In this document: one piece after another, positions 45,651 through 64,000 of the stretch
How the letters are laid out: each line of letters opens with the position of its first letter
How positions within the stretch are numbered: position 1 is the stretch's first letter
Translations under genes and position numbers: made by a program
NCBI RefSeq assembly: GCF_009720385.1
Contig: NZ_ML769302.1
Coordinates: 778,937 to 842,936, forward strand
From: Catellatospora vulcania
GTDB lineage: Bacteria > Actinomycetota > Actinomycetes > Mycobacteriales > Micromonosporaceae
Direction of reading: 5' to 3'
Length of the DNA stretch: 64,000 bases
The notes under the pieces: model-generated
What the model saw: only the letters and a program-made list of their open reading frames with translations
The model's database searches: none
Told to the model about the DNA's origin: nothing

Positions 45651-46025
45651 GCGGCGCTCTGACCTGCCAATACGCCCAGGCTTGGCAAGTCGGGAAGTCC
45701 GAATTAGACTACGGTTCTGTCGCTCCCGTGACAGTCGTCCTCGGACAGGCCGGTGCACACCTCACCCGATGTCGTACTGTCGACACGAAGTGCAGCTGAT
45801 CCGACCGGCGTTGTCGCGGCCAGCCGAGCCGCGGCCGCGAAAGATACAGCACCCACCCGACTTGGGTGTCGATTGGCTGTCCGATCAGCCACATTGCCTG
45901 CCTTCCTCTTGCCCTGAGCAGCAATCTTCCTGAAGCTTCAGGGTTAGCGTCAGCTGTGGCTTTTCGCGTTCGGGCACCGGTGTCTACCGGGCCCGCTTCC
46001 TTTGGTTTGGCGGGAGAGAACAACT
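45651..46025. other. Long upstream region of the first propeller gene
   Basis: A spacer of 375 bp with lower GC and no supported gene. It holds TAGACT and TACGGT hexamers near 45715 that could be promoters, a stem-loop around CACCC/GGGTG, and a perfect 14-base palindrome CCTGAAGCTTCAGG at 45929-45942. If transcription starts near 45720 the leader would be about 300 bases, enough for a structured regulator. Confidence 0.45.
45929..45942. promoter_or_regulatory. 14-base perfect palindrome, possible operator
   Basis: CCTGAAGCTTCAGG, about 85 bases before the start of the propeller-malectin gene. Confidence 0.4.
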
Positions 46026-48560: not shown

Positions 48561-48580
48561 ACCGTGACACGGCAGTGAAG

Positions 48581-48618: not shown

Positions 48619-48682
48619 ATGGGGGCCGGGCGTTGCCCGTTACGGGTCGAACGGCTAAAGTGTGCCGAATGCCCAGGCCTAA

Positions 48683-48692
48683 TTGTCGACAA
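48683..48692. promoter_or_regulatory. TTGTCGACAA palindrome
   Basis: A perfect 10-base palindrome, followed by GCGTGAA and TTCACGC as a 7-bp hairpin (48708-48727). The same TTGT-NN-ACAA form occurs just upstream of the polysaccharide co-polymerase gene at 55185. Confidence 0.4.
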
Positions 48693-48801
48693 TAGACCCG
48701 TAATAGTGCGTGAAGTGGTATTCACGCAAGCGGTTATGCGGCTTTCCCGTGGTCGTCTGCACGACAGGCTCGCCCGCCGATTCGTGGCAGCATCCGGACG
48801 T

Positions 48802-50124
48802 ATGTATGGGTTCTCGATCGCGCGTCGCATCAGGCGGCGCCCGGTGTTCGTTGCGCTGACCACGGCGGCCACCCTCGCCGCCGTCGCCTTCGGCGCCTCC
48901 GCCTCGGCCGTGTCGGTGCAGCACCCGGCACTGGTCGGGCAGGATCCGGTCAACTGGACGCCGCACGCCCTCGACGGCACCGCCTTCAAGATCCTTGCCA
49001 TCGGCGGCCGCGTCTACGTGGGCGGCTCGTTCACGCAGATCCGGCCGTCGAACTCGACGACGGTGACCACACAGCGCCGGCTGTTCGCCTTCAACGCCAC
49101 CACCGGCGCCATCGACACCACCTTCAAGCCGGTGGTCGACGGCACGGTCCGCACCCTGGTCGCGGCGCCTGACGGCCAGTCGCTCTACATCGGCGGCGAC
49201 TTCACCAACGTCAACGGGGTCCGTTCGCGCGGTGTCGAGCGGATCAGCGCCACCACCGGGGCTTCGGTGTCCGGCTTCACCGTGCCGGAGATCAACGGCG
49301 GGGTCGACGAGCTGAAGCTGACCGGCAGCCGGCTGCTGCTCGGCGGGCGGTTCCAGACCGTCGGCGGGGCGAGCCGGCGCGGCCTGGCCGCGCTCAACGC
49401 GGGCACCGGCGCGGCCGACGCCTCGGTGAACATGAGCCTGGACGGCGCGCGCACCACCGGCTCCGGGGCCACCTCCGCGGTGAAGGTGACCGGCATGGAC
49501 GTCACCCCCGACGGCTCGAAGCTGGTCATCATGGGCAACTTCAGCAGCGTCGCAGGCCAGGCCCGGCATCAGATCGCGGTGGTGAACCTGGCCACCTCAC
49601 CGGCCACGCTGTCGCCCTGGACGACGACGCGCTACCAGCAGCAGTGCTCGAACTCGTTCCCGACCTACATGCGCGCCGTCGACATCTCCGCCGACGGGAC
49701 CTGGTTCGTGGCGGTCACCACCGGCGCCAAGCGCACCGGCTCACTGTGCGACACCGCGGCCCGGTGGGACCTGGTCAGCCAGGTCGCCAACAAGCAGCCG
49801 GTCTGGGCCAACTACACCGGCGGGGACACCCTGCTGTCCGTCGCGGTGGCCGGGGCTGCCGTCTACGTCGGCGGCCACCAGCGCTGGCTGGACAACCCGA
49901 ACGGCTCCGACGACGCCGGTCCGGGCGCCGTGCCGTCCGAGGGCATCGGCGCGATCAATCCGGTGACCGGCAAAGCCTTCACCTGGAACCCCGGAAAGGA
50001 TCGAGGCGTCGGCACCGAGGACATCTACCCCACTACCGCAGGACTGTGGATTGCCAGCGATACGGATACAGTGCATGGCGAGTTCCATGGAAGGATCGCA
50101 TTCTTTCCATTGCCGGCAACGTGA
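48802..50124 (+). CDS. Secreted beta-propeller protein, short paralogue
   Basis: 440 aa. A Sec signal (MYGFSIARRIRRR then a hydrophobic stretch ending ASASAV) is followed by the same propeller as the preceding gene; for example both carry a TGGDTLLSVA segment followed by VYVGGHQRW. It stops where the malectin-like domain would begin (IAFFPLPAT). It is therefore a tandem duplicate that lost, or never had, the C-terminal half. The start is not strongly marked: an in-frame ATG at 48736 would give a longer, less signal-like N-terminus. Confidence 0.8.
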   Translation: MYGFSIARRIRRRPVFVALTTAATLAAVAFGASASAVSVQHPALVGQDPVNWTPHALDGTAFKILAIGGRVYVGGSFTQIRPSNSTTVTTQRRLFAFNATTGAIDTTFKPVVDGTVRTLVAAPDGQSLYIGGDFTNVNGVRSRGVERISATTGASVSGFTVPEINGGVDELKLTGSRLLLGGRFQTVGGASRRGLAALNAGTGAADASVNMSLDGARTTGSGATSAVKVTGMDVTPDGSKLVIMGNFSSVAGQARHQIAVVNLATSPATLSPWTTTRYQQQCSNSFPTYMRAVDISADGTWFVAVTTGAKRTGSLCDTAARWDLVSQVANKQPVWANYTGGDTLLSVAVAGAAVYVGGHQRWLDNPNGSDDAGPGAVPSEGIGAINPVTGKAFTWNPGKDRGVGTEDIYPTTAGLWIASDTDTVHGEFHGRIAFFPLPAT

Positions 50125-50163: not shown

Positions 50164-50291
50164 AGGATAGGCAGTGAGATGTGCGGCGTCGTGGCGGATG
50201 ATGTTGTGTCCGTGACGGCGCCGCATACGGCTGCCATGAGCCAATACAGAGATCGCGGCTTGGTCCGCGTGAACCTGCTCGGAGTCTGACT

Positions 50292-51917
50292 GTGGCCTAC
50301 CCCGCGCGGAGCACCCGCTTCGCACCGCCAGAACGCTTAGACCCTCGAACAAGGCGACGCGGCTTCTGGCCGCCGTCCCGCGGCCGTTTGATCGTGGCCG
50401 CGGTCGTCGCCGCATGCGTCGGTGTGGCACTGATCGGCGTGGCGATCGTGTTCGCCAAGGACAGCCCGCCTGAGACCACCTCCCAGCGGATCCCCGTGGG
50501 CGAGGACGGTTACGTGGTGCGCGAGGAGCCGGACACGGTGTTCGGCGGCCGGGACACCCTGGTGTCCGTCGCGCGTCCCGACTACTACGCGGTGGCGTAC
50601 ATGAAATTCCAGGTCGCGACACCCGCAGGCTTCCGCGTGCAGTCGTTGTCGCTGCAGCTGCAGGCCGACGCCAAACCTCCGGCGTCGCTGCAGGTGCGCT
50701 CGGTGCTCAGCAGCGACTGGTCCGAGAAGGACCTGTCGTACGCCACCCGGCCCGGCCTCGGCGAGGTGCTCGGCGGCGAGCCGGCGGTCTCGGCGACGAA
50801 CCTGGTCAGCTTCGACGTCAGCGCGGCGACGCCGGCGCCCGGCGAGGGCCCGGCCCGCTACTCGTTCGCGGTGACCAACGCCAGCGACAGCGAGACGCTG
50901 ACGCTGTTCGCCGGCGAGCACGGCGCGGGCGCACCGGCCCTGGCGGTGGTCTTCGTCGAGATCACCGACACCGAGACGCTGGACGGGCACCAGCGGGGCG
51001 ACGGCGGCGGCAAACCGCAACCGTCCGGCAGCGTTTCGCCCGGGGCTTCGGCGACGCCGTCGGTCGGTCCCTCCGCCTCGGTCACCCCGGGCCAGCCGAA
51101 CCCGCCGGGCAACATCCCGGCCGGGCGCACGCTGTGCGGCGTCGGCTTCATCCCCAAGAGCGGCGAGTCGTACGCCCAGGGCGTGACCCGGGTGGACGGC
51201 CTGTACGGCGGCCTGGAGGCCTTCCGTACCTTCTACACGGGCGCGCCCGCGGCCTGGCCCGGCAACGCGGGCAAGGCCGGGCGCACGGTCGTGGTCTCCT
51301 TCAAGTACAACCCGAAGGAGATCCTCAGCGGGTCGCGCGACTCCTACCTGAAGAACTGGTTCGCGCAGGCGCCCCGGGACCGTGACGTCTACTGGGTCTA
51401 CTACCACGAGCCCGAGGACAACATCGAGTCCGGCGTGTTCACCGCGGCCGACTACCGGGCGGCCTGGCGCCGTATCGCCGGGCTGGCCGACGCCGCGGGC
51501 AACAGCAAGCTGCACGCCACGCTGGTGCTGATGGACTGGAGCGTGTTCCCACAGTCCGGCCGCAAGTGGAAGGACTACTACGCCGGCAGCGACGTCATCG
51601 ACGTGCTCGGCTGGGACGTCTACAACTTCAACTTCACCAACCCGAAGTACCCCGACGCCGCGACCATGGTGAACCGGGTGGCCAACATCTCGAAGGCCGA
51701 GGGCAAGCCGTGGGGCATCGCCGAGCTGGGCACCGCCAAGCTGCCCGGTGACACCTCCGGCAGCGGCCGGGCGGCGTGGCTGACCGACGCGGCCAACGCC
51801 TCCATCAAGGGCGGCGCGCTGTGGGTCACGTACTTCGACGTCGACTTCACCCGGGCCGACTGGCGCCTGCTGGACGCGCCCAGCCAGAAGGCGTGGCGCG
51901 GGTTCTGCGACGCATGA
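50292..51917 (+). CDS. Membrane-anchored GH26-type glycoside hydrolase with CBM96-like domain
   Basis: 541 aa. A cytoplasmic basic head is followed by a transmembrane helix (about 33-55). A DNRLRE/CBM96-like beta domain spans about 70-225 (AYMKFQV, FRVQSLSLQLQ, SFDVSAA). A Ser/Pro/Gly linker leads to a TIM-barrel-like domain from about 278. Candidate catalytic acids are the Glu in YYHEPEDN and the Glu in WGIAELGTAK, the GH26 pattern. GH26 enzymes cut beta-mannans or related glycans; the substrate here is unknown. A truncated relative without the CBM lies at 63096. The GTG has GGAG upstream. Confidence 0.8.
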   Translation: MAYPARSTRFAPPERLDPRTRRRGFWPPSRGRLIVAAVVAACVGVALIGVAIVFAKDSPPETTSQRIPVGEDGYVVREEPDTVFGGRDTLVSVARPDYYAVAYMKFQVATPAGFRVQSLSLQLQADAKPPASLQVRSVLSSDWSEKDLSYATRPGLGEVLGGEPAVSATNLVSFDVSAATPAPGEGPARYSFAVTNASDSETLTLFAGEHGAGAPALAVVFVEITDTETLDGHQRGDGGGKPQPSGSVSPGASATPSVGPSASVTPGQPNPPGNIPAGRTLCGVGFIPKSGESYAQGVTRVDGLYGGLEAFRTFYTGAPAAWPGNAGKAGRTVVVSFKYNPKEILSGSRDSYLKNWFAQAPRDRDVYWVYYHEPEDNIESGVFTAADYRAAWRRIAGLADAAGNSKLHATLVLMDWSVFPQSGRKWKDYYAGSDVIDVLGWDVYNFNFTNPKYPDAATMVNRVANISKAEGKPWGIAELGTAKLPGDTSGSGRAAWLTDAANASIKGGALWVTYFDVDFTRADWRLLDAPSQKAWRGFCDA

Positions 51918-51977: not shown

Positions 51978-52889
51978 TCAGATGCCGCGACCGCGCTGGT
52001 GCAGCCGGCGCAGCACGGTGTCGGCGGAGACGAGGCGGGTGGCCACCGCCAGCGCCAGGTAGGAGCGCGCTTCCCGGGGGCTGTGCCGGATGGTCTTCTT
52101 GACCCAGCGCATGGCGTCCTTGCGGTGCCCGCCCGCGGCCTGCGCGAACGCGATCTGCCCGGTGATCCGGGCGTGGCCGCGCGGTGCGCCCTCGAACTCC
52201 GGGTAGCGCTCCAGCAGCCACTCCAGCGCCTCGGCGATGGTCGCCCAGCGCGCGGTGAAGTACGACTGGCGGTGCCAGCGCACCCGCACGCCGACGCCCG
52301 GCGCGTTGGCGATCGGGGCCCGCCGCGCGACGCGCAGCAGCAGCTCGTAGTCCTCGGCGTAGCTGCCCGGGATGTTCTCGTCGACCAGGCCGATGCCGTC
52401 GACCAGCGCCGGGCGGCGGAACAGGAACGTCGACGGGTGCAGCTCGGTCAGCCGCGAGCGCAGCAGCTCGGGCAGCGTCACCAGGGCACGGTCCAGGGTG
52501 CGGTCCACGTCCTTGCCGTCGTAGTCGATGACGACGCCGATCGAGCACAGCTCGGACGCCGGGTTGGCGTCGAGCATGGCGACCTGGGCGGCCAGCTTGC
52601 CCGGCAGCCACTCGTCGTCGTCGTCGCAGAAGGCCACCAGGTCGGTCGCGGTGGCCAGGATGCCGGTGTTGCGGCCGCCGGCCAGGCCCTGGGTGCGCTC
52701 GTTGACGATGACCCGGACCCGGCGCTGCGGGTCGTCCTGGACCAGAGAGAAGTCAGGCTCGCTCTGGTCGTACACGACGACGATCTCGACCGGGCCGGGG
52801 TAGTCCTGGCCCAGGATCGCGTCGATCGCCTTGCGCAGCAGTTCCGGGCGGTTGCGGGTGGGCACGACCACCGAGACGCTCGCCGTCAT
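51978..52889 (-). CDS. GT2-family glycosyltransferase
   Basis: 303 aa. The GT-A fold is shown by SVSVVVPTRNRPELLRKAIDAIL, a nucleotide-sugar Asp, GGRNTGILAT and the FCDDDDEWLPGKL metal motif. The acceptor loop has the DENIPGSYAEDYELLLR pattern. It adds a sugar from a nucleotide donor on the cytoplasmic side. The ATG overlaps the stop of the fusion gene upstream (ATGA), making it the third gene of a minus-strand operon. A short C-terminal helical extension follows the GT-A fold. Confidence 0.88.
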   Translation of the reverse strand: MTASVSVVVPTRNRPELLRKAIDAILGQDYPGPVEIVVVYDQSEPDFSLVQDDPQRRVRVIVNERTQGLAGGRNTGILATATDLVAFCDDDDEWLPGKLAAQVAMLDANPASELCSIGVVIDYDGKDVDRTLDRALVTLPELLRSRLTELHPSTFLFRRPALVDGIGLVDENIPGSYAEDYELLLRVARRAPIANAPGVGVRVRWHRQSYFTARWATIAEALEWLLERYPEFEGAPRGHARITGQIAFAQAAGGHRKDAMRWVKKTIRHSPREARSYLALAVATRLVSADTVLRRLHQRGRGI

Positions 52890-54430
52890 TTCCTTCTCCA
52901 GTCCAGGTAGCCGTAGCGCGCGCGGCCGAACCATGTCATCACGCCGAGGATGCGGCGCTTGCGGGGCGCGAGCTTGCCGCGCCAGGCGGCGTCGAGCCGC
53001 AGCTCCAGCTCGCCGTTGGTGAAACGCATCGGGTTGCCGGCGACGGTGTGGGTCGTCTCCAGCCGGGCCACCGGCAGCCCGGCGGCGGGCTGCGTCAGGC
53101 ATTCGGCGCCGCCGGGGCCGAGGCCCGCGAACGCGCGGATGCGGCGCAGGCCGTCGACGGGCCGGGCCACCACGTCCTCGTAGCGCAGCCGCAGCGTCGG
53201 CACGCGCACCCAGTCGAGCACGTGGAACAGCGCGTTGTGCACGGTCCACAGCACGCCCGACTTGACCGCCGAGTACTGCGGCATGAACACCTCGGCGCCC
53301 ACGATCTCCGGCCGCAGCACCTCGCGGCTCCAGGAGTAGGCCACCGCGCGGCCGTCCCGCACCAGGTGCAGCACCCGCAGGTCGACGCCGCGCGCGTGGC
53401 GCAGCGCGAAGGCCAGCGAGGCGTGCTTGCTGGAGTCGACGACCACGCTCGCCCCGGAGACGTCGGCCACCGCGCGGTAGATCCGCCGGTGCAGCTCGCC
53501 GTACGCCCGCAGGTCCTTTTTGCGGCGGTTCAGGAAGAACGGCAAGCCCATCCGCAGCACGAAGCGCATCCGGTCGACCCGGTGCTTCAGCGCCATGGTG
53601 GCGTCGAGGTCCAGTTTGTCCCAACCGCCGAACGCCAGATCGCCCACCTTCGCCCAGAACGGACAGTCGGCGAAGGCACTGCCGCAGCCGCAGCGCTCGT
53701 TGTCGCGCAGGGCGCGTTCCCAGATGTGCGTCACCTCACCTACCGCGCACACGTCCGGGGCCTGGCCCAGGATGCGGTCGGTCAGCGTGGAGCCGCTGCG
53801 TCCCCAGCCACCGATGAACAGCACGGTGACCTTGTCCGAAGGGGTGGGCCGGGGAACCCGCGTGACCAGGCCGTCGGCGATCGAGCCCACGCGCAGTGCG
53901 GCCGCGGCCGCGGCGGCGCCCGCCTCGCTGCCGGAGATGCGCAGCAGGGTGGGCTCGGCCAGGGCGGCGTCGAGCGCGTTGCGGAACTCGGCCTCGGTCC
54001 GGCACAGCTCCACCATGCCCAGGCTGCCCATCCGGGCGGCGAAGCGCTGCTGGTGGTCGTCGACGTGCTCGTGCAGCGCGGGGTCGCGGGGCACCACGAT
54101 CGGCTTGTGACCGGCCCGGCGGGCCTCGGTGATGGTGGCGGGGCCGCCGTGGCAGACCACCACCGCGGCCTGGCGCAGCCGCTCGTTGAGGGTCTCGTGG
54201 TCGAAGAACGCGTCCGAGCCGGGCAGCTGCCGCGGGGTCGACGAGCCGTACTGCATGACGCAGGGCACGTCCCGCTCGGCGGACCAGCGCTCGGCCCAGT
54301 CCAGCAGCCGGTCGAAGGAGTGCACGTCGGTGCCGACCACGACCAGGACGGCGTCGCGCTCGGGTCGGCGCTGCTCCGGCACGGACAGCGCGGTGCGCTG
54401 CGACGGGAAGTCGGGTGAGGTGGTCGTCAC
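52886..54430 (-). CDS. Fusion of Alg13-like glycosyltransferase domain and sulfotransferase
   Basis: 514 aa. Residues about 20-190 form an Alg13/PssE-like GT28 C-terminal domain (VLVVVGTDVHSFDRLLDWAERW, VVVCHGGPATITEARRAGHKPIVVPRD, DDHQQRFAARM). Residues about 200-500 form a PAPS-dependent sulfotransferase: 5'-phosphosulfate loop FIGGWGRSGSTLTDRILG, a CGCGSAFADCPFW segment, and the 3'-phosphate region VVVDSSKHASLAFAL. Both halves look intact. Alg13-like subunits need an Alg14-like partner, which is the gene directly upstream. A single protein coupling sugar transfer with sulfation is unusual. The GTG overlaps the upstream stop as GTGA. Confidence 0.85.
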   Translation of the reverse strand: MTTTSPDFPSQRTALSVPEQRRPERDAVLVVVGTDVHSFDRLLDWAERWSAERDVPCVMQYGSSTPRQLPGSDAFFDHETLNERLRQAAVVVCHGGPATITEARRAGHKPIVVPRDPALHEHVDDHQQRFAARMGSLGMVELCRTEAEFRNALDAALAEPTLLRISGSEAGAAAAAAALRVGSIADGLVTRVPRPTPSDKVTVLFIGGWGRSGSTLTDRILGQAPDVCAVGEVTHIWERALRDNERCGCGSAFADCPFWAKVGDLAFGGWDKLDLDATMALKHRVDRMRFVLRMGLPFFLNRRKKDLRAYGELHRRIYRAVADVSGASVVVDSSKHASLAFALRHARGVDLRVLHLVRDGRAVAYSWSREVLRPEIVGAEVFMPQYSAVKSGVLWTVHNALFHVLDWVRVPTLRLRYEDVVARPVDGLRRIRAFAGLGPGGAECLTQPAAGLPVARLETTHTVAGNPMRFTNGELELRLDAAWRGKLAPRKRRILGVMTWFGRARYGYLDWRRK

Positions 54431-54897
54431 AGCAGCGGCCCCACCATCGTCGCGCCCTTGTACAGCCGCATCTGCTCCTCGAACTGGACGAGCATGCGCG
54501 AGGTGAACGGCGCGCACAGCCGCGCGGTCAGGGTGCGCGTCTCCAGCCGGTCGTAGACCTCCACGTAAACAGTGGGTATCCGCAGCAGCCGGGCGACGAT
54601 GAAGAACGGCAGGGCCACACCGGCGCCGGTCGAAATCACCACATCAGGGCGCGATCTGCGCAGCATCTTCACCGCGAGCAGTGCATTGCGCAGCAGATTC
54701 GGGATGTTGCGGGTGGTCGGATAGTGCGCGTAGACCACGTTCTCGCCCCCGAGCAGGCTGTGCGCGTCCTGCGTGGGGAAGGTCACCCAGGTGCGGAAAC
54801 GGTCTGTCCACCATGGACGCAGTGCGTAAAGCTGGGCGAGATGTCCGCCCGACGAGCCGACCAGCATGACATGACGTGCACGATTCGGTTCGCCCAC
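54427..54897 (-). CDS. Alg14/PssD-like glycosyltransferase subunit
   Basis: 156 aa. It has the family start RHVMLVGSSGGHLAQLYALRPW, a possible membrane-association helix around LPFFIVARLLRIPTVYVEVYDRLETRTL and the STGAGVALP motif. In PssD/PssE and Alg14/Alg13 pairs this subunit holds the acceptor and recruits the catalytic subunit to the membrane. Here the Alg13-like partner is the next gene, overlapping by four bases. The GTG start follows GAGAGGA. It opens the three-gene minus-strand operon. Confidence 0.87.
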   Translation of the reverse strand: MGEPNRARHVMLVGSSGGHLAQLYALRPWWTDRFRTWVTFPTQDAHSLLGGENVVYAHYPTTRNIPNLLRNALLAVKMLRRSRPDVVISTGAGVALPFFIVARLLRIPTVYVEVYDRLETRTLTARLCAPFTSRMLVQFEEQMRLYKGATMVGPLL

Positions 54898-55203
54898 CTC
54901 GGTTCCTCTCCACGTCGACGACCCGCAGCCTAGCGACACGATTTAACATTTCCGCGCGGACGATTGTCGGTAGCCTGACAGTGCATGTGATCTGACCGAA
55001 CGGCAGGTCTGGGCGTCATACTCTTGAGCCCGCTGAGGCGATCGTGGCGTCCAATAACTCCGGTCTGATACAGAAGTGGCCGTTTGGCTGAGCGCGTACC
55101 AGGCAGTGATGGCTATGGTGAGGACCGTCTACCCAGGGCGTCTTCACCTGCGCCGCGCCGGTCGTCGGTCCTGTGTTCATGGGTTTGTTAACAAGGGGAA
55201 TCA
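54898..55203. other. Divergent promoter region between the two polysaccharide operons
   Basis: A spacer of 306 bp. It contains TGTCGGTAGCCTGACA (54965-54980), whose TGTC and GACA ends are inverted and whose TAGCCT (54971-54976) could be a -10. A TTGTTAACAA palindrome lies immediately before the co-polymerase start. No gene is supported. Confidence 0.45.
55185..55194. promoter_or_regulatory. TTGTTAACAA palindrome at the co-polymerase ribosome site
   Basis: A perfect 10-base palindrome ending 9 bases before the ATG at 55204; its right end runs into the AAGGGG ribosome site. A protein bound here would block translation initiation or transcription. Confidence 0.45.
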
Positions 55204-56934
55204 ATGGCTACTAATGCGGCCTCGGTGCAGACGGCGAGCATGGGCGATTACGTCGGCTGGCTGGCCCGCCGCTGGTGGCTGGTGGCGATCGCAGTGGCAG
55301 TAGGCGGGCTCGGCGGACTCGGGGTCGCGGCGACCCAGCCCAAGGTCTACGTGTCCGAGACGAAGGTCCTCGTGATGCAGGTGGGCCAGGACACCACGAC
55401 CAAGGTGAACCTCGACACCGAGTCGCAGGTCGTGCGTTCCACGACGGTCGGCGGCGCGGCCAAGAATCTGATCAATACGGACACCCCGGTCGAAGAGCTG
55501 GTGTCGCGGGTCACCGTGACGGTCCCGGCGAACACCTCGGTGCTGTCCATCACCTTCGACGCGCCCACCGTGGCCGAGGCGCAGCGCGGCTCGCAGGCCT
55601 TCGCCCAGGCCTACCTGGACCAGCGCGCCGCCGAGGCGCAGAAGAACGTCGACGTGCAGGGCGCCGCGATGCGCGACGAGATCGCCGGGCTCACCAAGCA
55701 GCTCGACGAGGTGGCCGCGCAGCTGGTCGGCCTGGCCGCCAACTCCGCCGACCGGCAGAAGGCCGTCCAGAAGCAGCAGATCCTCACCGCGCAGATCAAC
55801 ACCCTGAACGGGCGGCTGATCCCGCTGCTGGCGACGACCGTCAAGCCGGGCAACATCCTGTCCGCGGCGACCAAGCCCACCTCCCCGGCCAAGCCCGACA
55901 TGATGCTTTACCTGGTCAGCGGCGTGGCCATCGGCCTGCTGCTGGGGCTGGCCGGCGCGCTGGTGCTGGACCGCATGGACTCGCGGATCTACCACAGCCG
56001 CCAGATCCCGTACCGCAACGACGTGCCGGTGCTGATGGAGGTCCAGCGGGGCCGGGACCGGTCGGCGGTCGCCGACGCGGCCAGCGCGCTGGGGCGCGAG
56101 TTCAGCCTGTTGCGCAACGTGCTGCGGGTCGCCGCCGGGGCCGCCCGCGGCGGTCGCCCCTCGGCCACCGACGCGCTGCTGATCTGCGGTGCGGCCCCCG
56201 GCCCGGCGGTCGAGTTCGTGGTCGCCAACCTCGCCGCGGCGTTCGCCCGGTCCGGCGAGCGCGTCGTGATCGTGTGCACCGACTCGACCTCGCTTCTGCC
56301 CGACCTGCTCGGCGTGAGCCCGTCGCGTGGCCTGGGCGACGTCATCGCCGGTGAGGTCACCCTGGACAGCGCCCTGTACGCCGTGCCCGCGATCCGCGGC
56401 GTCTCGCTGCTCGGCGCGGGCCGGCTCGACCCGCGGGTCGAGCTGCCGGTCGCCGCCGTGTCCGACCTGCTGGCGCAGCTGCAGCAGCAGGCCGACCGGG
56501 TGCTGCTGGCCACCGCGCCGCCGAGCCGGGCTGTCGACGCGCAGGCGCTCAGCGAGATCGCCGCGTCCGTCCTGCTGGTCGTCGAGACCCGGGTCGCCCG
56601 CGCCGAGGACGTCGAGGAGTCGGTCGAGCAGGTCGCCCGGGTCCAGGGCCCGCTGGCCGGCCTGCTCGTGGTCCGCAGCCCGCGGGTCGCCCGCAAGCTC
56701 AAGCGCAAGGCCGCCCCGAGCGCGCCGATCGTGGACTCTCCCGCAGTGCCCGCGGCCGCGGATCTGCCGCGCGCGGGCCGCGACTTCGACCAGACGATGG
56801 TCATCCCGCGGGTCGGCGAGGACGGCGACCGGATCGAGTTCTGGGCCCCCGGCTCCGACAGCGCGGACAAGAAGACCAACGGCGGCAAGCGCACCAGCAG
56901 CTCGGCCGACCAGTCCACCGCCGATCTGCGATGA
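55204..56934 (+). CDS. Wzz-type polysaccharide co-polymerase with degenerate BY-kinase-like domain
   Basis: 576 aa. TM1 at about 22-44 and TM2 at about 234-258 flank an extracellular region with a coiled segment (about 130-200), the Wzz chain-length architecture. A cytoplasmic ATPase-like domain follows at about 320-500. Its P-loop position reads GAAPGPAVEF, without the Gly-Lys-Ser of Walker A, and the C-terminus lacks the usual tyrosine cluster. It is probably an inactive structural regulator of chain length. The ATG follows AAGGGG. It heads a co-directional operon with four-base overlaps. Confidence 0.85.
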   Translation: MATNAASVQTASMGDYVGWLARRWWLVAIAVAVGGLGGLGVAATQPKVYVSETKVLVMQVGQDTTTKVNLDTESQVVRSTTVGGAAKNLINTDTPVEELVSRVTVTVPANTSVLSITFDAPTVAEAQRGSQAFAQAYLDQRAAEAQKNVDVQGAAMRDEIAGLTKQLDEVAAQLVGLAANSADRQKAVQKQQILTAQINTLNGRLIPLLATTVKPGNILSAATKPTSPAKPDMMLYLVSGVAIGLLLGLAGALVLDRMDSRIYHSRQIPYRNDVPVLMEVQRGRDRSAVADAASALGREFSLLRNVLRVAAGAARGGRPSATDALLICGAAPGPAVEFVVANLAAAFARSGERVVIVCTDSTSLLPDLLGVSPSRGLGDVIAGEVTLDSALYAVPAIRGVSLLGAGRLDPRVELPVAAVSDLLAQLQQQADRVLLATAPPSRAVDAQALSEIAASVLLVVETRVARAEDVEESVEQVARVQGPLAGLLVVRSPRVARKLKRKAAPSAPIVDSPAVPAAADLPRAGRDFDQTMVIPRVGEDGDRIEFWAPGSDSADKKTNGGKRTSSSADQSTADLR

Positions 56935-57926
56935 ACCGGTCGATTCGCCTGGGAGCGGCGGCCGCGCTGGCCGCCGCGTCGTTCACCGCGGGCTGCTCGG
57001 TCGGCCCGGCCAAGCCGCCGTCGAGCGCGCCCGTGGAGCTGTCGCCGTTCACGCTGCCCTCGCCTGAGGCGGTGCGCCCGCGCGCGCCGCTGACGGGGCT
57101 GGAGACGGAGGAGGCGACCAAGGCGAAGACCGCGGTCATCGTGCCGATCGAAATCGGCACGGGTGCCGCGGCGCCGGTCGGGCTGGACAAGGCCGACATC
57201 GTCGAGCTGGAGTTCGCCGAGGGCAAACTGCTGCGGGTGGCGGCGGTCTACCAGTCGACCCCGGCTGACCGCGTCGGCCCGGTGGCGGCGGTGCGCCCCG
57301 CCGAGATCAAACTGCTCAACCAGCTGCAGCCGTACATGGTGCACAACGGCACCCCCAAGGGCTGGGCCGACCTGCTGGCCATGTCGAAGCTGCCCGCGGT
57401 CACCCCGGCGAAGAAGACCGGGTTCACCACCACCTCCGGGCGGGTCTACGTGAACACGGGCACGCTGCAGGCGTCCGCTCCGGCCCAGCAGAAGCTGCTG
57501 GCCTCGCTCTTCCAGTTCGGCCAGCCGGGCGAGCCCGTCGCGACGGGCAGCACCCCGGCCACCACTATCGTGGTCGCGTCCCCCGGGCACGCGGCGGTGA
57601 CCTGGAAGTTCGACTCGACCACCCGGCGCTGGCAGACCACCCTCGGCGGGGTTCCGGTCGCCACGGCCAACCTGATCCTGATGACCACGCCGTTCAACAA
57701 GAAGGACGTCAAGGCCCTCGACCGCGAGGTGGCGATGGCGGACCCGGTCGGCAAGGGCGCGGCCCAGGTCTTCGGCGCGGGCCAGGGCGCCAAGGCGACG
57801 TGGAACAAGGCCGGCTTCTTCTCCGCCCTCAACCTCCTCGGCCCTGAGCAGTCCGTGGTGCGGCTCTCCCCGGGTCCGAGCTGGATCCTGCTGCTGCCCT
57901 CGACGGCGAAGGTGACCGTCTCGTGA
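56931..57926 (+). CDS. DUF3048 (YerB-like) lipoprotein
   Basis: 331 aa. A lipoprotein signal ends FTAGC. The domain has PLTGLETEE, then KTAVIVPIE, ADIVELEFAEGKLLRVAAVYQS and ADRVGPVAAVRPAEIKLL, the DUF3048 pattern. The function of the family is unknown; members are extracytoplasmic and often occur in envelope gene clusters. The ATG overlaps the upstream stop (ATGA). Its location inside a Wzx/Wzy operon points to a role in polymer assembly or attachment. Confidence 0.82.
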   Translation: MNRSIRLGAAAALAAASFTAGCSVGPAKPPSSAPVELSPFTLPSPEAVRPRAPLTGLETEEATKAKTAVIVPIEIGTGAAAPVGLDKADIVELEFAEGKLLRVAAVYQSTPADRVGPVAAVRPAEIKLLNQLQPYMVHNGTPKGWADLLAMSKLPAVTPAKKTGFTTTSGRVYVNTGTLQASAPAQQKLLASLFQFGQPGEPVATGSTPATTIVVASPGHAAVTWKFDSTTRRWQTTLGGVPVATANLILMTTPFNKKDVKALDREVAMADPVGKGAAQVFGAGQGAKATWNKAGFFSALNLLGPEQSVVRLSPGPSWILLLPSTAKVTVS

Positions 57927-59374
57927 CCACCGCCGCCCGCCGCACGCCGGGGGAGACCACACCCGCCGACGAGGGTGCGGGCGTCCGCGGCGTGGCGGCC
58001 GCTCCCGAACATGCCCGAGCCCTGCCGCCACTCGCCGCGGTGCTGCACCGCCGCGGCGTGCACGAGCCGGTGCCCGCACGCGAGTGGGCGCTGTTCGCCA
58101 TGATCGTGCTGTATCCGGTGGGCTGGCTGCTCGGCCTGACCCTGGCCTGGGTTCCGCTGCTGGCGATCCCGATGGCGCTGGAGCTGTTCCGGCGCGGCCG
58201 GGTGCGCATGCCCGCGCCGGTCTTCGCCTGGCTGCTGCTGTGCTTCCTCGGCCTGATCGGCGGCGTCATGCTGGACGCCACGGTGCCCGACGCGCTGCCG
58301 CCGGAGATGGGCCTGGGCCGCATCCTGGCCTTCGCCCGCCGCCTGCTGGACATGGGCGCGGCCATCGTGGTGCTGCTGTACATCGGCAACCTCACCGAAC
58401 GCGAGCTGCCCACCAAACGCGTGGTGAAGTTCCTGGCCTACTTCTTCGTGGTGCTCGTCGTCGGCGGCATCGCGGGTGTGCTGCTGCCACGCATCGCGGT
58501 CACCACCCCGCTGGCCGAGGTGCTGCCGAAGTCGCTGCTGGCCAACGGCTGGGTCCGGTCGTCGGTGCGCATCGAGTTCGCGCAGTGGCAGACCATCGTC
58601 GGCGAGTCGCCGTCACCGCGGCCGGCCGCGCCGTTCCAGTACACCAACGCGTGGGGCCAGTGCATCGCGGTGCTGCTGCCGTGGTTCATCCTGGCCACGC
58701 TGTACAAGACCAAGGGTCTGTGGAGCAAGATCTGGCCGACGCTGGTCCTGATCGCCGCGATGATCCCGATCGTCTACTCGCTCAACCGGGGCACCTGGGC
58801 CGGTCTGGGCATCATCGTCGCCTACCTGGTGGTCCGGATGGCCATCCGGGGCAGCATCATGCCGGTGGCCGGCGTGCTCATCGCGGTCGCCCTGGGCGGC
58901 CTGCTGGTGCTCGCGACACCGCTGGGCAGCACCGTGACGGCCCGGATGGACAACCCGCACTCCAACGAGGGGCGGGCCTCGCTCAACGCCGCCGCGTGGG
59001 ACGCCGCCAAGGCCTCGCCGATCATCGGATTCGGCGGTCAGTCGGAGACGATCGGCAGCGAGCGGTCCATCGCGATCGGCCAGAGCCCGTCCTGCGAGCA
59101 GTGCGGCAACCGCGACATCGGCAGCGACGGCCAGCTGTGGATGCTGCTGATCACGCAGGGCTTCGTCGGCGCGGGCCTGTACCTGCTGTTCTTCCTGTGG
59201 ATGGGCTGGCGCTTCCGGCGTGACCATTCGTGGCTCGGCATCGCCGCCGGAGTCACCGTCCCGCTGGCGATCTGGTTCTCCACGATCTACAACTCGACCG
59301 GCATGACCCTGGTGATCATGATGGTCCCGCTGGCCCTGCTCTGGCGCAACGAGACGAACCGGGTGTACACATGA
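57923..59374 (+). CDS. Wzy-type polysaccharide polymerase / O-antigen ligase family protein
   Basis: 483 aa. A cytoplasmic N-terminus of about 50 residues is followed by about ten transmembrane helices. A large external loop at about residues 345-395 contains NPHSNEGRASLNAAAWDAAKASPIIGFG, typical of the Wzy_C loop, with conserved Arg and a late HS/ER stretch. It would polymerise lipid-linked repeat units outside the membrane. The GTG overlaps the upstream stop as GTGA. Ligase activity is an alternative, since the family is shared. Confidence 0.83.
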   Translation: MTTAARRTPGETTPADEGAGVRGVAAAPEHARALPPLAAVLHRRGVHEPVPAREWALFAMIVLYPVGWLLGLTLAWVPLLAIPMALELFRRGRVRMPAPVFAWLLLCFLGLIGGVMLDATVPDALPPEMGLGRILAFARRLLDMGAAIVVLLYIGNLTERELPTKRVVKFLAYFFVVLVVGGIAGVLLPRIAVTTPLAEVLPKSLLANGWVRSSVRIEFAQWQTIVGESPSPRPAAPFQYTNAWGQCIAVLLPWFILATLYKTKGLWSKIWPTLVLIAAMIPIVYSLNRGTWAGLGIIVAYLVVRMAIRGSIMPVAGVLIAVALGGLLVLATPLGSTVTARMDNPHSNEGRASLNAAAWDAAKASPIIGFGGQSETIGSERSIAIGQSPSCEQCGNRDIGSDGQLWMLLITQGFVGAGLYLLFFLWMGWRFRRDHSWLGIAAGVTVPLAIWFSTIYNSTGMTLVIMMVPLALLWRNETNRVYT

Positions 59375-59421
59375 GCCGCGCGCGGACCCTGACCATCGTC
59401 GTCCGCGAGGTGGCGAAGTGA
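59371..59421 (+). CDS. 16-codon micro-ORF bridging two genes
   Basis: ATG at 59371 overlaps the polymerase stop (ATGA), and its own TGA overlaps the GTG of the next gene (GTGA). It codes for MSRARTLTIVVREVAK. It closes an otherwise 43-base gap, so ribosomes could pass from one gene to the next without leaving. It may be purely a coupling device or a small membrane-associated peptide. Confidence 0.35.
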   Translation: MSRARTLTIVVREVAK

Positions 59422-60641
59422 GCGGCGAGTTCCTCACCGAGCTCGGCCGGCTGCTGGGCGACGACACCGCCGGCACGGCCACCGACCGGGTCTTCCTCGG
59501 CCGGGGTGCGGGCGCGGCGGGCGAGGTGTACACCGTCGTCCCCGCCATCGGCAAGGCCCGGTTGCTGGTCCCGCACGGCGACCGCCGGGCGGCCGGCGCC
59601 GCGATCCGGCACACCAGCGCCCCCCGCTCCGCCAAGGACCGGCTGCGCCAGCGGGTGCTCGCCGGCGTCTTCTCCACCGGGCTCGGCAGTCGCACCCTCG
59701 GTGACCTGGTCTTCCGTGACCGGCTCGCGGTGCAGGCGCAGCCGTCGCTGGCCGAGCACCTCAGCGGGCTGCTGGGGCAGCGGGTGCGGCTGAGCGTGCG
59801 CTTCGGGCCGCCCCGGGCCAACCGCAAGCCCGTGCTCCAGCTCATCGATGATCGGGCGCACACGGTGGCGTACGCCAAGATGGCCGTCAACGAGCTGACC
59901 TCGACCCTGATCGCCGCCGAGCACCGCGCGCTGCGCCTGCTCGCCGACCGCGACCTGGTCCCGGCCCGGGTGCCCGACGTGCTGCACTTCGGCAAATGGG
60001 CCGGTGCGGAGCTGCTCGTCGTCGGTGCGCTGCCGGTGAGCCTGGAGGCGCCGCCGGACGGGCTGACCCCGCTCAGCCTCGCCGCGATGCGCTCCATCGC
60101 GCAGGTGCAGGGCGTCACCCGCGGCACGTACGCGGGCAGCACCTACGCCGCCCGGCTGGCCGCCCAGGTCGACGCGCTCGGCGACCGGCCCACCGCGGTG
60201 CTGATGCGCCGCGCGCTGGCCGCGTGCGCCGACGCCGAGATCGGCTTCGGCTGCTGGCACGGCGACTGGAACGGCGGCAACATGTCCGTCCGCGACGGCG
60301 AGCTGCTGCTCTGGGACTTCGAACGCTTCACGCCGGACGTGCCGGTCGGCTACGACCCGCTGCACTTCGAGCTGCACGAGGCCGTCGCAGTACGGCACAC
60401 CGACCCCGTGGTCGCCGCGCGTTCGGTCGCCGAGCGGGCCGCCGAGCTGCTCGCCCCGCTCGGGGTCGACGCCGAGGTCGCGAACGAGGTCGCCGCCCTG
60501 TACTTCATCGAGATCGGCAGCCGCTACCTGGGCGACGGTCTGGACAACCTCGGCCGGCCGATGGGGCGCGTCGACGAGTGGATCAACGGGGCGTTCGCCG
60601 GACTGGGCGGGCGATGGGCTTCTCTGGTGGGGGACAACTGA
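59418..60641 (+). CDS. Protein kinase/APH-fold phosphotransferase-like protein
   Basis: 407 aa. The catalytic loop is FGCWHGDWNGGNMSV (HxDWNxxN) near residue 280, followed by LLLWDFERF (the DFG-equivalent Asp), as in APH-type kinases. N-terminally a beta-rich part contains AYAKMAVNEL, with the candidate ATP-site Lys. It probably phosphorylates a sugar, lipid or glycan intermediate; nothing indicates antibiotic resistance. The GTG overlaps the micro-ORF stop. The next gene, a sulfotransferase, overlaps its stop (TGATG). Confidence 0.75.
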   Translation: MSGEFLTELGRLLGDDTAGTATDRVFLGRGAGAAGEVYTVVPAIGKARLLVPHGDRRAAGAAIRHTSAPRSAKDRLRQRVLAGVFSTGLGSRTLGDLVFRDRLAVQAQPSLAEHLSGLLGQRVRLSVRFGPPRANRKPVLQLIDDRAHTVAYAKMAVNELTSTLIAAEHRALRLLADRDLVPARVPDVLHFGKWAGAELLVVGALPVSLEAPPDGLTPLSLAAMRSIAQVQGVTRGTYAGSTYAARLAAQVDALGDRPTAVLMRRALAACADAEIGFGCWHGDWNGGNMSVRDGELLLWDFERFTPDVPVGYDPLHFELHEAVAVRHTDPVVAARSVAERAAELLAPLGVDAEVANEVAALYFIEIGSRYLGDGLDNLGRPMGRVDEWINGAFAGLGGRWASLVGDN

Positions 60642-61510
60642 TGGCAGTCAAGAGCCGTGTACGGAAGTTCGTCTGGCGCAAGGCCGGCGCGCTGGCCCGG
60701 ACCGCGGGACAGCTGACCGCGGACCGGCGCATGGTGCCGTCGTTCCTGATCGTCGGCACGCAGCGCGGCGGCACGACCTCGCTGCACAAGGCGCTGGCGC
60801 AGCACCCGGCATACCTGCCGCCGCGCTTCCGCAAGGGCGTGCACTACTTCGACATGGACTACCACCGCGGGCACGCCTGGTTCATGGGCCACTTCGTGAG
60901 CCGCACCAAGGCCGAGCGCACCGCGCAGACCCTCGGCATGCCCGTGGTCACCGGCGAGGCCAGCCCGTACTACATGTGGCACCCGCTGGCCCCCGAGCGC
61001 ATCGCCCGGGACCTCCCCGGCATCAAGCTCATCGTGCTGCTGCGCGACCCGGTGGAGCGCGCCTACTCCGGCCACGCCCACGAGTACGCCCGCGGCTTCG
61101 AGACCGAGAAGTTCGAGCAGGCCGTGGCGCTGGAGGCTGGGCGCATGGCCGGCGAGCGGGAGAAGATGGCCGCCGACCCGGGCTACCACAGCCACGCCGT
61201 ACGCCACCTCGCCCACCTGGGCCGCGGCGAGTACATCGACCAGCTGCTGCACCTGGAGTCCCTGGTCGGCCGGGAGCGGCTGCACGTCGTCGACAGCCAC
61301 GACTACTTCGCCGACCCGGCGCGCATCTTCACCGGGGTGTGCGAGTTCCTCGGCATCCCGGACGTGCCCGGCATCGTGCACGACCAGCACAACGCCCGGC
61401 CCCGCTCGCCGATGTCCGACGAGCTGCGGTCCCGGCTGGAGGACCACTTCGCGCCGTACGACGCCCGGCTCGCCGACTGGCTCGGCCATCAGCCGAGCTG
61501 GCGGCGATGA
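60641..61510 (+). CDS. Sulfotransferase
   Basis: 289 aa. The 5'-phosphosulfate loop is FLIVGTQRGGTTSLHKAL near residue 33, and the 3'-phosphate motif is LIVLLRDPVERAYSGHAHEY near 130. A late FLGIPDVPG and a C-terminal DARLADWLG segment fit the heparan-sulfotransferase-like family. It transfers sulfate from PAPS to an acceptor, here most likely the exopolysaccharide repeat. This is the second sulfotransferase of the locus. The ATG overlaps the upstream stop. Confidence 0.87.
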   Translation: MAVKSRVRKFVWRKAGALARTAGQLTADRRMVPSFLIVGTQRGGTTSLHKALAQHPAYLPPRFRKGVHYFDMDYHRGHAWFMGHFVSRTKAERTAQTLGMPVVTGEASPYYMWHPLAPERIARDLPGIKLIVLLRDPVERAYSGHAHEYARGFETEKFEQAVALEAGRMAGEREKMAADPGYHSHAVRHLAHLGRGEYIDQLLHLESLVGRERLHVVDSHDYFADPARIFTGVCEFLGIPDVPGIVHDQHNARPRSPMSDELRSRLEDHFAPYDARLADWLGHQPSWRR

Positions 61511-63099
61511 GCGGGCAGACGCCGGCCCACGCCGGCGCCTACGGGGCAGACCGCGGGCGCGTCATGCGCAGCAGCCTGTTCAACCTCGTCGGCGCGGGCG
61601 TGTCCGCCGTCGCCGGGCTGGCGCTGACCGTGGTGGTCACCCGTGGCTTCGACGCGAGCGTCGCCGGGGTGCTGTTCACGCTCACCTCGGTCTTCCTGAT
61701 CCTGTCCGCGGCGGCGCTGCTCGGCGCGGAGACCGGTGTGGTCTACCTGCTCGCCCAGCAGCGGGTACGCGAAGAGACCGGCAAGATCCGCGCCACAGTG
61801 CGGGTCGCGACGACCCCGGTCGTGGTGGCCAGCATCCTGCTCGCGGTCGGGCTGTGGTTCGCCGCGCCGTGGCTGGTCGGCGTCATGCTGCCGGACGCCC
61901 CCGCCGGCACCGTCGCCGCGATCCAGGTGTTCGCCGTCTTCCTGCCGACCTCCACCATCACCGGCGTGCACCTGGCCGTCGGCCGCGGACTCGGCACCAC
62001 CCGGCCCAACGTCATGGTCATGCGGGTGCTGCGGCCCGGCCTGCAACTGCTCGGCGTCGTCGCCGTGCTGGTGGCGGGCTGGACCAGCTCGGTGGCGCTC
62101 GCCCTGGCCTGGTCCCTGCCGTACGCGCTGGGCCTGGTCGTGGCGGTGCTCTGGTCGGCGAAGCTGCGGCGCAAGGCCGAGCGCTCCGGCGGACAGCCGG
62201 TCGAGGCGCCCACCCGCGAGGACTGGAGCCGCTTCTGGCGCTACGCCTCGCCCCGGGCCGGGACCGGCCTGGCCCAGCTGGCGCTGCAGCGCCTCGACGT
62301 CGTGCTGATGGCCGCGCTGCGCGGCCCGGTGGACGCCGCGCTCTACACCGCCGCCACCCGCTTCCTGGTCATCGGCCAGCTCGGCGGCCAGGCGCTGGGG
62401 CAGACCGTGCAGCACCGCTTCTCCGGCCTGCTCGCACAGGACCAGCACGACGAGGCGAACCGCCTCTACCAGATGACCACCACCTGGCTGATCGCGCTGA
62501 TCTGGCCGTTCTACCTGACCTGGGCCATCTTCGGCGGGCAGCTGATGACGGTGTTCGGCGAGGGTTACACGGCGGGCGGCGACGCCGGCGTCGTCGGGAT
62601 CGTGCTGTCGCTGACCATGCTCGTCGCGACCGCGTGCGGCATGGTCTCCACGGTGCAGGAGATGGCCGGGCACACCGGCGTCGCGTTCTTCCAGACCATG
62701 CTGGCGCTGGTCGTGAACGTGGTCCTCAACATCGTGCTGATCCCGTCGTACGGGATCGTCGGCGCCGCGATGGCCTGGTCGGCGGCCCTGCTCATCAAGA
62801 ACCTGCTGCCATTGGCGCAGCTGCAGCGCCGGCATGGGCTGTCCCCCCTGTGCCGGGGCGGGTTCATCGCGATGGCCGCCGCCGTCGCCTGCTACGCGGC
62901 CCTGCCCCTGGTGGTCCGGGTCCTGTTCGGTGATCACCCGCTCGTCGGGCTCGGCTCGGTGCTGGCCGCGACCGTCGTTTACGTAGCGGTAGTGTGGCGG
63001 TGCCGGCACGCTCTGCAACTGGCCGGCCTGCGCGCGCTCCGGCGTCGTGGGAAGACCCCGGCACAGACCTCACCCCCAGTGGAGACCCTCGTCCCATGA
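61507..63099 (+). CDS. Wzx-type polysaccharide flippase (MATE/MOP superfamily)
   Basis: 530 aa with about fourteen hydrophobic helices. The pattern MRSSLFNLVGAGVSAVAGLALTVVVTRGFD is typical of polysaccharide flippases, and a RFWRYASPRAGTGLAQLALQRLDVVLMAA segment starts the second bundle. It moves lipid-linked repeat units across the membrane. A Lys/Arg-rich C-terminal tail follows. The ATG overlaps the sulfotransferase stop, and its own stop overlaps the GH26 gene start. Confidence 0.87.
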   Translation: MSGQTPAHAGAYGADRGRVMRSSLFNLVGAGVSAVAGLALTVVVTRGFDASVAGVLFTLTSVFLILSAAALLGAETGVVYLLAQQRVREETGKIRATVRVATTPVVVASILLAVGLWFAAPWLVGVMLPDAPAGTVAAIQVFAVFLPTSTITGVHLAVGRGLGTTRPNVMVMRVLRPGLQLLGVVAVLVAGWTSSVALALAWSLPYALGLVVAVLWSAKLRRKAERSGGQPVEAPTREDWSRFWRYASPRAGTGLAQLALQRLDVVLMAALRGPVDAALYTAATRFLVIGQLGGQALGQTVQHRFSGLLAQDQHDEANRLYQMTTTWLIALIWPFYLTWAIFGGQLMTVFGEGYTAGGDAGVVGIVLSLTMLVATACGMVSTVQEMAGHTGVAFFQTMLALVVNVVLNIVLIPSYGIVGAAMAWSAALLIKNLLPLAQLQRRHGLSPLCRGGFIAMAAAVACYAALPLVVRVLFGDHPLVGLGSVLAATVVYVAVVWRCRHALQLAGLRALRRRGKTPAQTSPPVETLVP

Positions 63100-64000
63100 G
63101 AAGAGCATTGCCGGCTGCGGGGCTGGTGATGGTGCTTCTGGCAGTGGCGGCTGCCGGGTGCACGACCGTCGTCCCGCAGGAGGAGCCGCTGCCGGCTCGT
63201 CCCAGCCCCACCCTCAAGCAACTCCCCACGGCAGCATCCGGCCCGTTCACCACCACCGGGCGGGGCCCGATCGTGCCCGAAGAAGGCGCGTGGTTCGGGG
63301 CTTTCGTGAACGCGCAGAACCGGCGCACCGGCGACCAGCTGGACGCGATCGACGGCTTCGAGGACATGATCGACAGGCCGCTCGCGCTTGCCCACTCGTT
63401 CCACCCGTGGCAGGACGACTTCCCCTCGACGTACGACTATGAGCTGGTCCACCGCGGCAAGCTGCTGATGATCTCCTGGGCGGGCACCGACACCCGGTCG
63501 ATCGTGACCGGGGTCTACGACAACGAGATCCGGCGGCGCGCCGAGGCGGTGCGCAACTTCCGCACCCCGATCCTGCTGCGCTACCGCTGGGAGATGGACC
63601 GCCCGAACCTGTTCAACGTGGTCCACTCGCCGGAGGACTACGTGGCCGCTTGGAAGCACGTGCGTGCCATCTTCACCGAGGTCGGCGCGGACAACGCCGC
63701 CTGGGTCTGGTGCCCGCACGCCGACGGTTTCATGGACGGCCGCGCCCAGCCCTTCTACCCGGGCGACGACCAGGTCGACTGGCTGTGCGCCGACGTGTAC
63801 TCCGGCCCGGAGATGTACTCCTTCACCGAGCTGATGGCCCCGGTCCTGGAGTGGGCCCGGCACCGCCCCCGCCCGCTGCTGATCGGCGAGTTCGGCGTGG
63901 TCAAGGGGGAGGCGGGCCAGCGGGCCGCGTGGCTGCACGAGATGCGGCTGGCGCTGCCCCAGCAGCCCCAGATCAAGGGCGTCCTCTACTTCAGTAGCGA
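63096..64000 (+). CDS. GH26-type glycoside hydrolase lipoprotein (runs off the right edge)
   Basis: 301 codons are visible. The signal ends VAAAGC, giving a lipid-anchored Cys. After a short Pro/Thr linker the GH26-like domain begins (GAWFGAFVN). Catalytic candidates are the Glu in RYRWEMDRPN and the Glu in LIGEFGVVK, spaced as in the family. It would act outside the membrane, trimming or releasing the polymer made by this operon. Unlike the relative at 50292 it has no CBM or membrane helix. The start overlaps the flippase stop (ATGA). Confidence 0.85.
   Translation, partial: MRRALPAAGLVMVLLAVAAAGCTTVVPQEEPLPARPSPTLKQLPTAASGPFTTTGRGPIVPEEGAWFGAFVNAQNRRTGDQLDAIDGFEDMIDRPLALAHSFHPWQDDFPSTYDYELVHRGKLLMISWAGTDTRSIVTGVYDNEIRRRAEAVRNFRTPILLRYRWEMDRPNLFNVVHSPEDYVAAWKHVRAIFTEVGADNAAWVWCPHADGFMDGRAQPFYPGDDQVDWLCADVYSGPEMYSFTELMAPVLEWARHRPRPLLIGEFGVVKGEAGQRAAWLHEMRLALPQQPQIKGVLYFSS

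Follow-up and report, generated by a model that had tools for sequence, protein, structure and literature searches.

Sulfate-bearing sugar polymers are familiar from animals and algae. Among bacteria, sulfated polysaccharides have been reported only from cyanobacteria according to Tezuka and Ohnishi (2026, PMC13390465), for whom the actinomycete case still awaits verification, and reports from marine bacteria extend the range beyond cyanobacteria (PMC11641403, PMC11766843). The closest published system to the one described here is the wps-1 cluster of Actinoplanes missouriensis (AMIS_7280-AMIS_7380), which its authors predicted to make a sulfated exopolysaccharide and which is needed for normal sporangia. 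Gene-by-gene deletions of wpsH, wpsI, wzx, wzy, wzz and AMIS_7390 led to defective sporangia, the wpsH phenotype resembling those of wzx, wzy and wzz, and deletion of the GH26 gene wpsE gave a mix of normal and abnormal sporangia. The effect of deleting AMIS_7390 was unexpectedly severe to the authors, who tied the enzyme to sulfur amino acids (PMC13390465). The present analysis concerns a stretch of 64,000 nucleotides from Catellatospora vulcania, a soil bacterium of the Micromonosporaceae, called the window below, which corresponds to positions 778937-842936 of contig C3 (843872 bp) in a genome of 8.83 Mb; the contig ends 936 bp beyond it. The window carries a gene cluster which, judging from its gene content, probably directs the Wzx/Wzy-dependent synthesis of a sulfated polysaccharide at the cell surface, and one of its genes encodes a fusion of a glycosyltransferase subunit with a sulfotransferase.

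A fused glycosyltransferase and sulfotransferase

The first-pass annotation of this DNA had described two divergent, overlapping operons, and gene calls together with Pfam matches confirm them with all the genes that it named. The left operon, on the minus strand, comprises Alg14, the fusion and a GT2 glycosyltransferase, and the right operon, on the plus strand (55204-64112), comprises Wzz, a DUF3048 lipoprotein, Wzy, a kinase, a second sulfotransferase (ST2), Wzx and a GH26 lipoprotein. Neighbouring genes overlap by 1-4 bp within both operons, with the sole exception of a 43 bp gap between Wzy and the kinase. The features, with their Pfam evidence, are:

51978..52889, minus strand: GT2 glycosyltransferase, start at 52889 (PF00535, 3.5e-25)
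52886..54430, minus strand: fusion of an Alg13/PssE-type glycosyltransferase subunit (N-terminal) and ST1, a sulfotransferase of the type that uses 3'-phosphoadenosine 5'-phosphosulfate (PAPS) (C-terminal) (PF04101, PF13469)
54427..54939, minus strand: Alg14/PssD-type glycosyltransferase subunit, start codon uncertain (PF08660, 1.2e-9)
55204..56934, plus strand: Wzz-type chain-length protein with a kinase-like C-terminal domain (PF02706, 3.8e-7)
56931..57926, plus strand: DUF3048 lipoprotein (DUF3048, 1.8e-17; DUF3048_C, 7.2e-7; lipobox-like AGC by eye)
57923..59374, plus strand: Wzy-type polymerase (PF04932, Wzy_C, 7.6e-10)
59418..60641, plus strand: APH-fold kinase (APH, 0.0025, below cut-off; invariant kinase positions)
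60641..61510, plus strand: sulfotransferase ST2, heparan-sulfate type (PF13469, 3.3e-12)
61507..63099, plus strand: Wzx-type flippase (MatE, 8.9e-7; MurJ, 9.5e-7)
63096..64000, plus strand: GH26 lipoprotein, running on to 64112 (PF02156, 3e-6)

Alg13 and the first sulfotransferase had been taken for separate genes, and here the annotation has to be corrected, since both domains lie in a single open frame. The reading frame has 543 codons, with Glyco_tran_28_C (Alg13-type, PF04101; 1.3e-12, 48.5 bits against a cut-off of 22) at residues 57-190 and Sulfotransfer_3 (PF13469, 6.5e-11) from residue 233; if the start overlapping the Alg14 stop is used, the protein has 514 residues. The NCBIfam PssE model gives the Alg13 part 63.4 bits, below its curated cut-off of 120. 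A full-length, unbroken fusion is present in eight of the 11 genomes of the genus, the source genome included, and absent from three (G002, G005 and G006). The eight proteins can be aligned over their whole length, the linker differing in size between them, and the sulfotransferase motifs are intact in all of them. The locus of C. coxensis (NZ_BONI01000054.1), for example, has a fusion protein 95% identical to that of the window.

Among 11 relatives inspected, C. coxensis and Arthrobacter (L090) have Alg13 and ST1 in one frame, and in the other nine (six Micromonospora, Pilimelia, a Euzebyaceae and an Ilumatobacteraceae metagenome-assembled genome (MAG)) the two parts occupy separate frames with a stop between them. 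Fused proteins in Micromonospora and Pilimelia, at which tblastn spans had hinted, were rejected for this reason. The Arthrobacter protein was likewise rejected as a working fusion: in Arthrobacter sp. Soil763 (L090 10001-11326) an Alg13 part is followed in one frame by a degenerate sulfotransferase-like part which has lost the PAPS motifs and is perhaps a structural remnant. In a sample of 296 genomes from the phylum, 37 had profile matches at E<=1e-60, and two genomes of other families, G395 (profile positions 21-510) and G276 (20-506), have both halves in one open frame with the GRSGST, DSSK and RD...S motifs intact; the match of G406 is partial (17-358) and its motifs are altered. The fusion, itself a new finding, thus occurs also in two other actinobacterial families, so it has either several origins or a patchy inheritance. 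Both histories tie this sulfotransferase to the glycosyltransferase. No description of this locus was found in the open-licence literature on Alg13 or PssE together with a sulfotransferase, as judged by titles and the openings of abstracts.

The cluster is not a chance assembly, since all 11 genes from the CBM96 gene, just left of the GT2 gene, to GH26 are collinear in all seven other Catellatospora loci fetched, at identities of 56-98%. How is it related to wps-1? A genome which we take to be that of A. missouriensis (G142) holds a cluster in the published wps-1 order at about 779-791 kb, and contig C8 of the source genome carries a collinear wps-1 orthologue, eight proteins of which are 52-75% identical to those of G142 and the ninth, a short one, 44%. 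In the ST2 tree a single clade (100/97) unites the sequences of C8, G007 and A. missouriensis, and outside it the window ST2 groups with those of Catellatospora and G032 (99/98). We therefore rejected orthology between the window cluster and wps-1, to which the C8 cluster is nearer; by these comparisons the window cluster is a paralogue of wps-1. The only match of G142 in a search with the fusion/ST1 profile is the wps-1 sulfotransferase, and so no window-type fusion was seen in that genome. Micromonospora and Pilimelia sequences form a separate ST2 group (93/98), so that the tree does not show a single origin of all window-type clusters.

Genes for priming and sulfate activation beside the cluster

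The cluster had been expected to continue past the window. The GH26 gene does run on to 64112, with a convergent cysN behind it where the contig ends, but the forward operon ends at the GH26 stop. The sequence beyond 64000 had also been proposed as the place for a priming transferase. A PF02397 priming transferase is lacking in the window, but the complete relative G007 bears the proposal out: there such a transferase, cysD and cysN come after GH26, in convergent orientation. The source contig ends inside cysN, and another contig, C30 (7075 bp), bears the matching priming transferase (89% identical), cysD and the start of cysN. A second module of priming transferase and cysD lies at the opposite end of C3. 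Over 2190 bp the two cysDN copies of G007 share 97.9% identity, which points to a recent duplication or to gene conversion, and such near-identical copies are likely to be the reason why the assembly breaks at cysN. Two modules of this kind in one genome (L066 536-3697 and L065 4108-7075), with contig breaks at cysN, were also noticed.

A third PF01507 protein of the source genome, encoded on C10, is a CysH that carries the CC...CxxC motif, which we take to be that of reductases of adenosine 5'-phosphosulfate (APS); assimilation therefore probably bypasses PAPS. The genome has one strong APS-kinase match, a sulfurylase/APS-kinase protein on C8 (2.8e-55), beside the second, paralogous cluster. 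The presumed A. missouriensis genome, G142, has a single APS-kinase match, the sulfurylase/APS kinase at the position of AMIS_7390 next to wps-1, which is a new observation; cysD and a priming transferase (58% identical) stand together at 8.12 Mb. Going by gene content, an AMIS_7390 mutant would thus have lost the sole APS-kinase match and lack PAPS for WpsB and WpsH, which would explain its severe sporangium defect.

Could cysDN be a housekeeping pair for sulfate assimilation which stands beside the cluster by chance and is not specifically linked to polymer sulfation? Irrespective of ST1, 59 of 61 family genomes contain a cysD of this type, and 33 of the 70 cysD copies lie more than 2 kb from any priming transferase. 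ST1-like proteins are themselves common, being found at E<=1e-40 in 125 of 150 Micromonosporaceae genomes, mostly as the sulfotransferase half only. We compared the linkage in the 61 genomes, using all 144 priming-transferase and 70 cysD rows; the test ignores kinship, and several of the ST1-negative assemblies are fragmented. With this limit, cysD lay within 2 kb of a priming transferase in 35/44 ST1-positive genomes (E<=1e-60) and in 1/17 ST1-negative ones (Fisher 1.4e-7, kinship ignored). The figures were 35/48 versus 1/13 (2.9e-5) with ST1 at E<=1e-40, and 27/44 versus 1/17 (1.0e-4) at 1 kb with ST1 at 1e-60. Positive genomes without the linkage include G011, G032, G043, G054 and G068. That the linkage is almost restricted to ST1-positive Micromonosporaceae genomes is a new finding and speaks against a chance neighbour, as do the two modules of G007 with their nearly identical cysDN and the many Nocardiopsis-type loci in which priming transferase, cysD, cysN and ST1 form a single run. 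A housekeeping pair is in our opinion a rather unlikely explanation, although the disregard of kinship works in its favour.

A wider set of loci comprises the best 80 of 289 relatives ranked by similarity to the fusion, a ranking which favours ST1; flanks of 10 kb and contig ends hide some neighbours. Alg13, Wzx and Wzy occur together in 46 of the 80 loci, accompanied by a sulfotransferase in 43, the kinase in 43, GT2 in 45, GH26 in 26 and a priming transferase in 18, and with cysD, cysN or cysC within the flanks in 13. Over all 80 loci, cys genes are near 17 of 52 with a sulfotransferase versus four of 28 without one, those four being Acidimicrobiales MAGs.

Sulfotransferases and the proposed pathway

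Both sulfotransferases had been credited with intact PAPS motifs, and the motifs prove to be conserved also in divergent relatives. The window ST1 has GRSGST as its 5' motif and RDGRAVAYS as its 3' motif. In an alignment of 23 ST1 rows the 5' motif (R, S or G, G, S or T, T) is kept in 22 and the R and S of the 3' motif in 20; the S is replaced by A in L080 and L082, and L090 has neither motif. In ST2, R42, G44, T45, T46, E106, R135 and S143 are invariant in 22/22 rows. We take the 5' and 3' motifs of both proteins to be PAPS-binding sites. A further motif, CxCG...F..C.[FL]W, was noticed in 23/23 ST1 rows, the degenerate Arthrobacter domain included (about residues 247-259 of the window fusion), and is possibly a metal site.

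What do these enzymes sulfate? It may be that the polysaccharide is made unsulfated and that the sulfotransferases act on another acceptor, such as an exported glycolipid, a small metabolite or a secreted protein. For ST1 no clear relative of solved structure was found, so that kinship gives no clue to its acceptor, and the mild effect of deleting wpsB, the ST1 counterpart, would agree with such an acceptor (PMC13390465). On the other hand, several lineages have ST1 joined to a glycosyltransferase subunit, and 43 of the 46 loci with Alg13, Wzx and Wzy have a sulfotransferase (in the ST1-favouring set of the best 80 of 289). ST2 has its kin among polysaccharide sulfotransferases, being nearest to 3rnl (1.2e-18) and to heparan sulfate 3-O-sulfotransferase (1.2e-11), with N-sulfotransferases also among its relatives, and deletion of wpsH acts like those of wzx, wzy and wzz (PMC13390465). 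We regard another acceptor as unlikely, more so than a housekeeping cysDN. That the sulfotransferase domains are decaying and non-catalytic, as the lost motifs of Arthrobacter L090 and the altered ones of G406 might suggest, is very improbable given the intact motifs of the window, of 8/8 genus fusions and of most ST1 rows, and the invariant positions of ST2.

A sulfated Wzx/Wzy polymer, as first proposed for the locus, thus gains genomic support from the motifs, the priming transferase with cysDN, the APS kinase and the knockouts in the homologous wps-1; the sulfation itself, its site and timing, the sugars and the roles of GH26 and the kinase are what we infer from them. In the pathway that we propose, the PF02397 priming transferase next door would load the first sugar on undecaprenyl phosphate, and the PssD/PssE-like Alg14-Alg13 pair and GT2 would extend the lipid-linked sugar. 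ST1, fused to Alg13, and the heparan-type ST2 would use PAPS to sulfate the lipid-linked repeat on its cytoplasmic side of the membrane, and the APH-fold kinase would add or supply a phosphoryl group. Wzx would then flip the repeat, Wzy and Wzz would polymerise it, and GH26 proteins may act on the chain outside the cell, where trimming or release of the polymer had first been suggested. CysD and CysN beside the window cluster would make APS, and the sulfurylase/APS-kinase protein beside the paralogous cluster would make PAPS.

Several points weigh against this pathway. The wpsB deletion left normal-looking sporangia and only lowered spore release from about 1e8 to 1e7 (PMC13390465), and all these deletion phenotypes belong to the paralogous cluster and not to that of the window. 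In G008, G009 and G010, where the priming transferase adjoins GH26, there is no cysDN between the two. The source genome has a second, weak APS-kinase match, on C12 (2.5e-4, above cut-off), and the adjacency of C3 and C30 is presumed.

The gene identities, conservation, motifs and linkage are directly observed, and a conserved gene set of this kind probably builds a sulfate-bearing surface sugar polymer. For a more general statement we see about equal chances of being right or wrong: that Actinomycetota have a widespread and for the most part undescribed sulfated-polysaccharide system of glycosyltransferases (bipartite or other), one or two sulfotransferases, an APH-fold kinase, Wzx/Wzy, GH26, a priming transferase with its own cysDN and an APS kinase, in which the lipid-linked repeat would be sulfated inside the cell, in some lineages by a fusion, and in which the AMIS_7390 defect would reflect loss of PAPS. 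Catellatospora, we assume, forms spore chains and not sporangia, and the role of the polymer would therefore reach beyond a sporangium matrix. With candidates for the chain-starting priming transferase and the PAPS-making enzyme, and a fusion that may sulfate during repeat assembly, the linkage makes the actinomycete question directly testable. The fusion is also a candidate enzyme for producing sulfated sugars.

Other proteins, flanks and known systems

The APH-fold kinase, which had been named from the sequence alone, holds up despite its weak Pfam score: K154, E168, H281-G282-D283, N288 and D300, to which we ascribe the roles that such positions have in kinases of this fold, are kept in 32/32 alignment rows. 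Its profile matches aminoglycoside phosphotransferase chains at 8.4e-6, and its solved relatives are all weak ones. Alg14 scores 38.8 bits in Pfam (cut-off 27) and 105.6 with NCBIfam PssD (cut-off 110); the PssD/PssE and WelK matches, all below their cut-offs, may hint at glucuronic acid or galactose, going by the sugar specificities of these enzymes. Wzz reaches 30.8 bits (cut-off 25.5), and Wzc-type models give 40-55 bits, far below their cut-offs. By eye, its kinase-like C-terminal domain seems to lack both the GKS/T that is usual in the P-loop and a terminal tyrosine cluster, and it may be a pseudokinase. Wzy scores 39.2 bits (cut-off 31.7). For Wzx the values are 29.2 (MatE, cut-off 24.9), 28.2 (MurJ, 27.4) and 24.6 (Polysacc_synt, 2e-5, below 28.2), with 42.5 bits for the NCBIfam MurJ model (cut-off 235.55). 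GH26 scores 27.2 bits (cut-off 20.2), and the Glu of RYRWEMD and of IGEFG align with the two Glu of 2bvd, presumably the catalytic pair.

The locus is also larger on its left side (46002-51917) than the first-pass annotation had it. The flanking features are:

46002..48560, plus strand: beta-propeller (Rax2-like) and malectin-domain protein (Malectin, 7e-9; Rax2, 2.2e-4, below cut-off)
48619..50124, plus strand: second beta-propeller protein (DUF5122, 4.2e-7; Rax2, 9.9e-7)
50292..51917, plus strand: CBM96 protein with a GH26-like C-terminal part (CBM96, 1.7e-15)
55049..55066, no strand: part of a conserved intergenic block between the divergent operons (18-mer identical in 8/8 Catellatospora loci)

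The CBM96 protein and both beta-propeller proteins adjoin the cluster in 7/7 other Catellatospora loci fetched, and residues 421-487 of the former weakly match the GH26 chain 4zxo (E 0.014). Relatives of the beta-propeller proteins, which could be surface proteins binding the polymer, were also seen near many other actinobacterial sulfotransferase loci. The intergenic block is possibly regulatory; co-regulation through it was rejected, the 18-mer having no second site in the source genome at <=3 mismatches.

We found no description of the locus in open-licence literature on exopolysaccharides of Catellatospora or on sulfated ones with Micromonosporaceae or, among the matches listed, Streptomyces, as far as titles and abstract openings go. 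Among known systems, the Alg14 and Alg13 parts best match the NCBIfam models of the bipartite glycosyltransferases PssD/PssE and Cps14F/Cps14G; the window proteins differ in scoring below the curated cut-offs and in the sulfotransferase fused to the PssE-like part. The synechan cluster of Synechocystis (PMC8205485) likewise concerns a bacterial sulfated exopolysaccharide, with sulfotransferases and Wzx, but is cyanobacterial, and the capsules of Vibrio KMM 8419 and Cobetia marina (PMC11641403, PMC11766843) are, by their abstracts, sulfated polysaccharides with a gene cluster and a determined structure, but from marine Gram-negative bacteria; both are likened to the window cluster by description only. 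The nearest published system is wps-1, which shares the families of GT2, both sulfotransferases, GH26, Wzx, kinase, Wzy and Wzz at 34-51% identity to the window proteins. It has in addition a GT26 protein (WpsC), a methyltransferase (WpsF) and a DUF4262 protein (WpsD) (PMC13390465), whereas the window cluster, among whose genes Pfam matched no GT26 or methyltransferase, has instead Alg14, the Alg13-ST1 fusion and the DUF3048 lipoprotein. The neighbours differ as well: the sulfurylase/APS kinase adjoins wps-1, and the priming transferase and cysDN adjoin the window cluster. The latter is a real variant of a recently predicted kind of system, with a function proposed from its genes.

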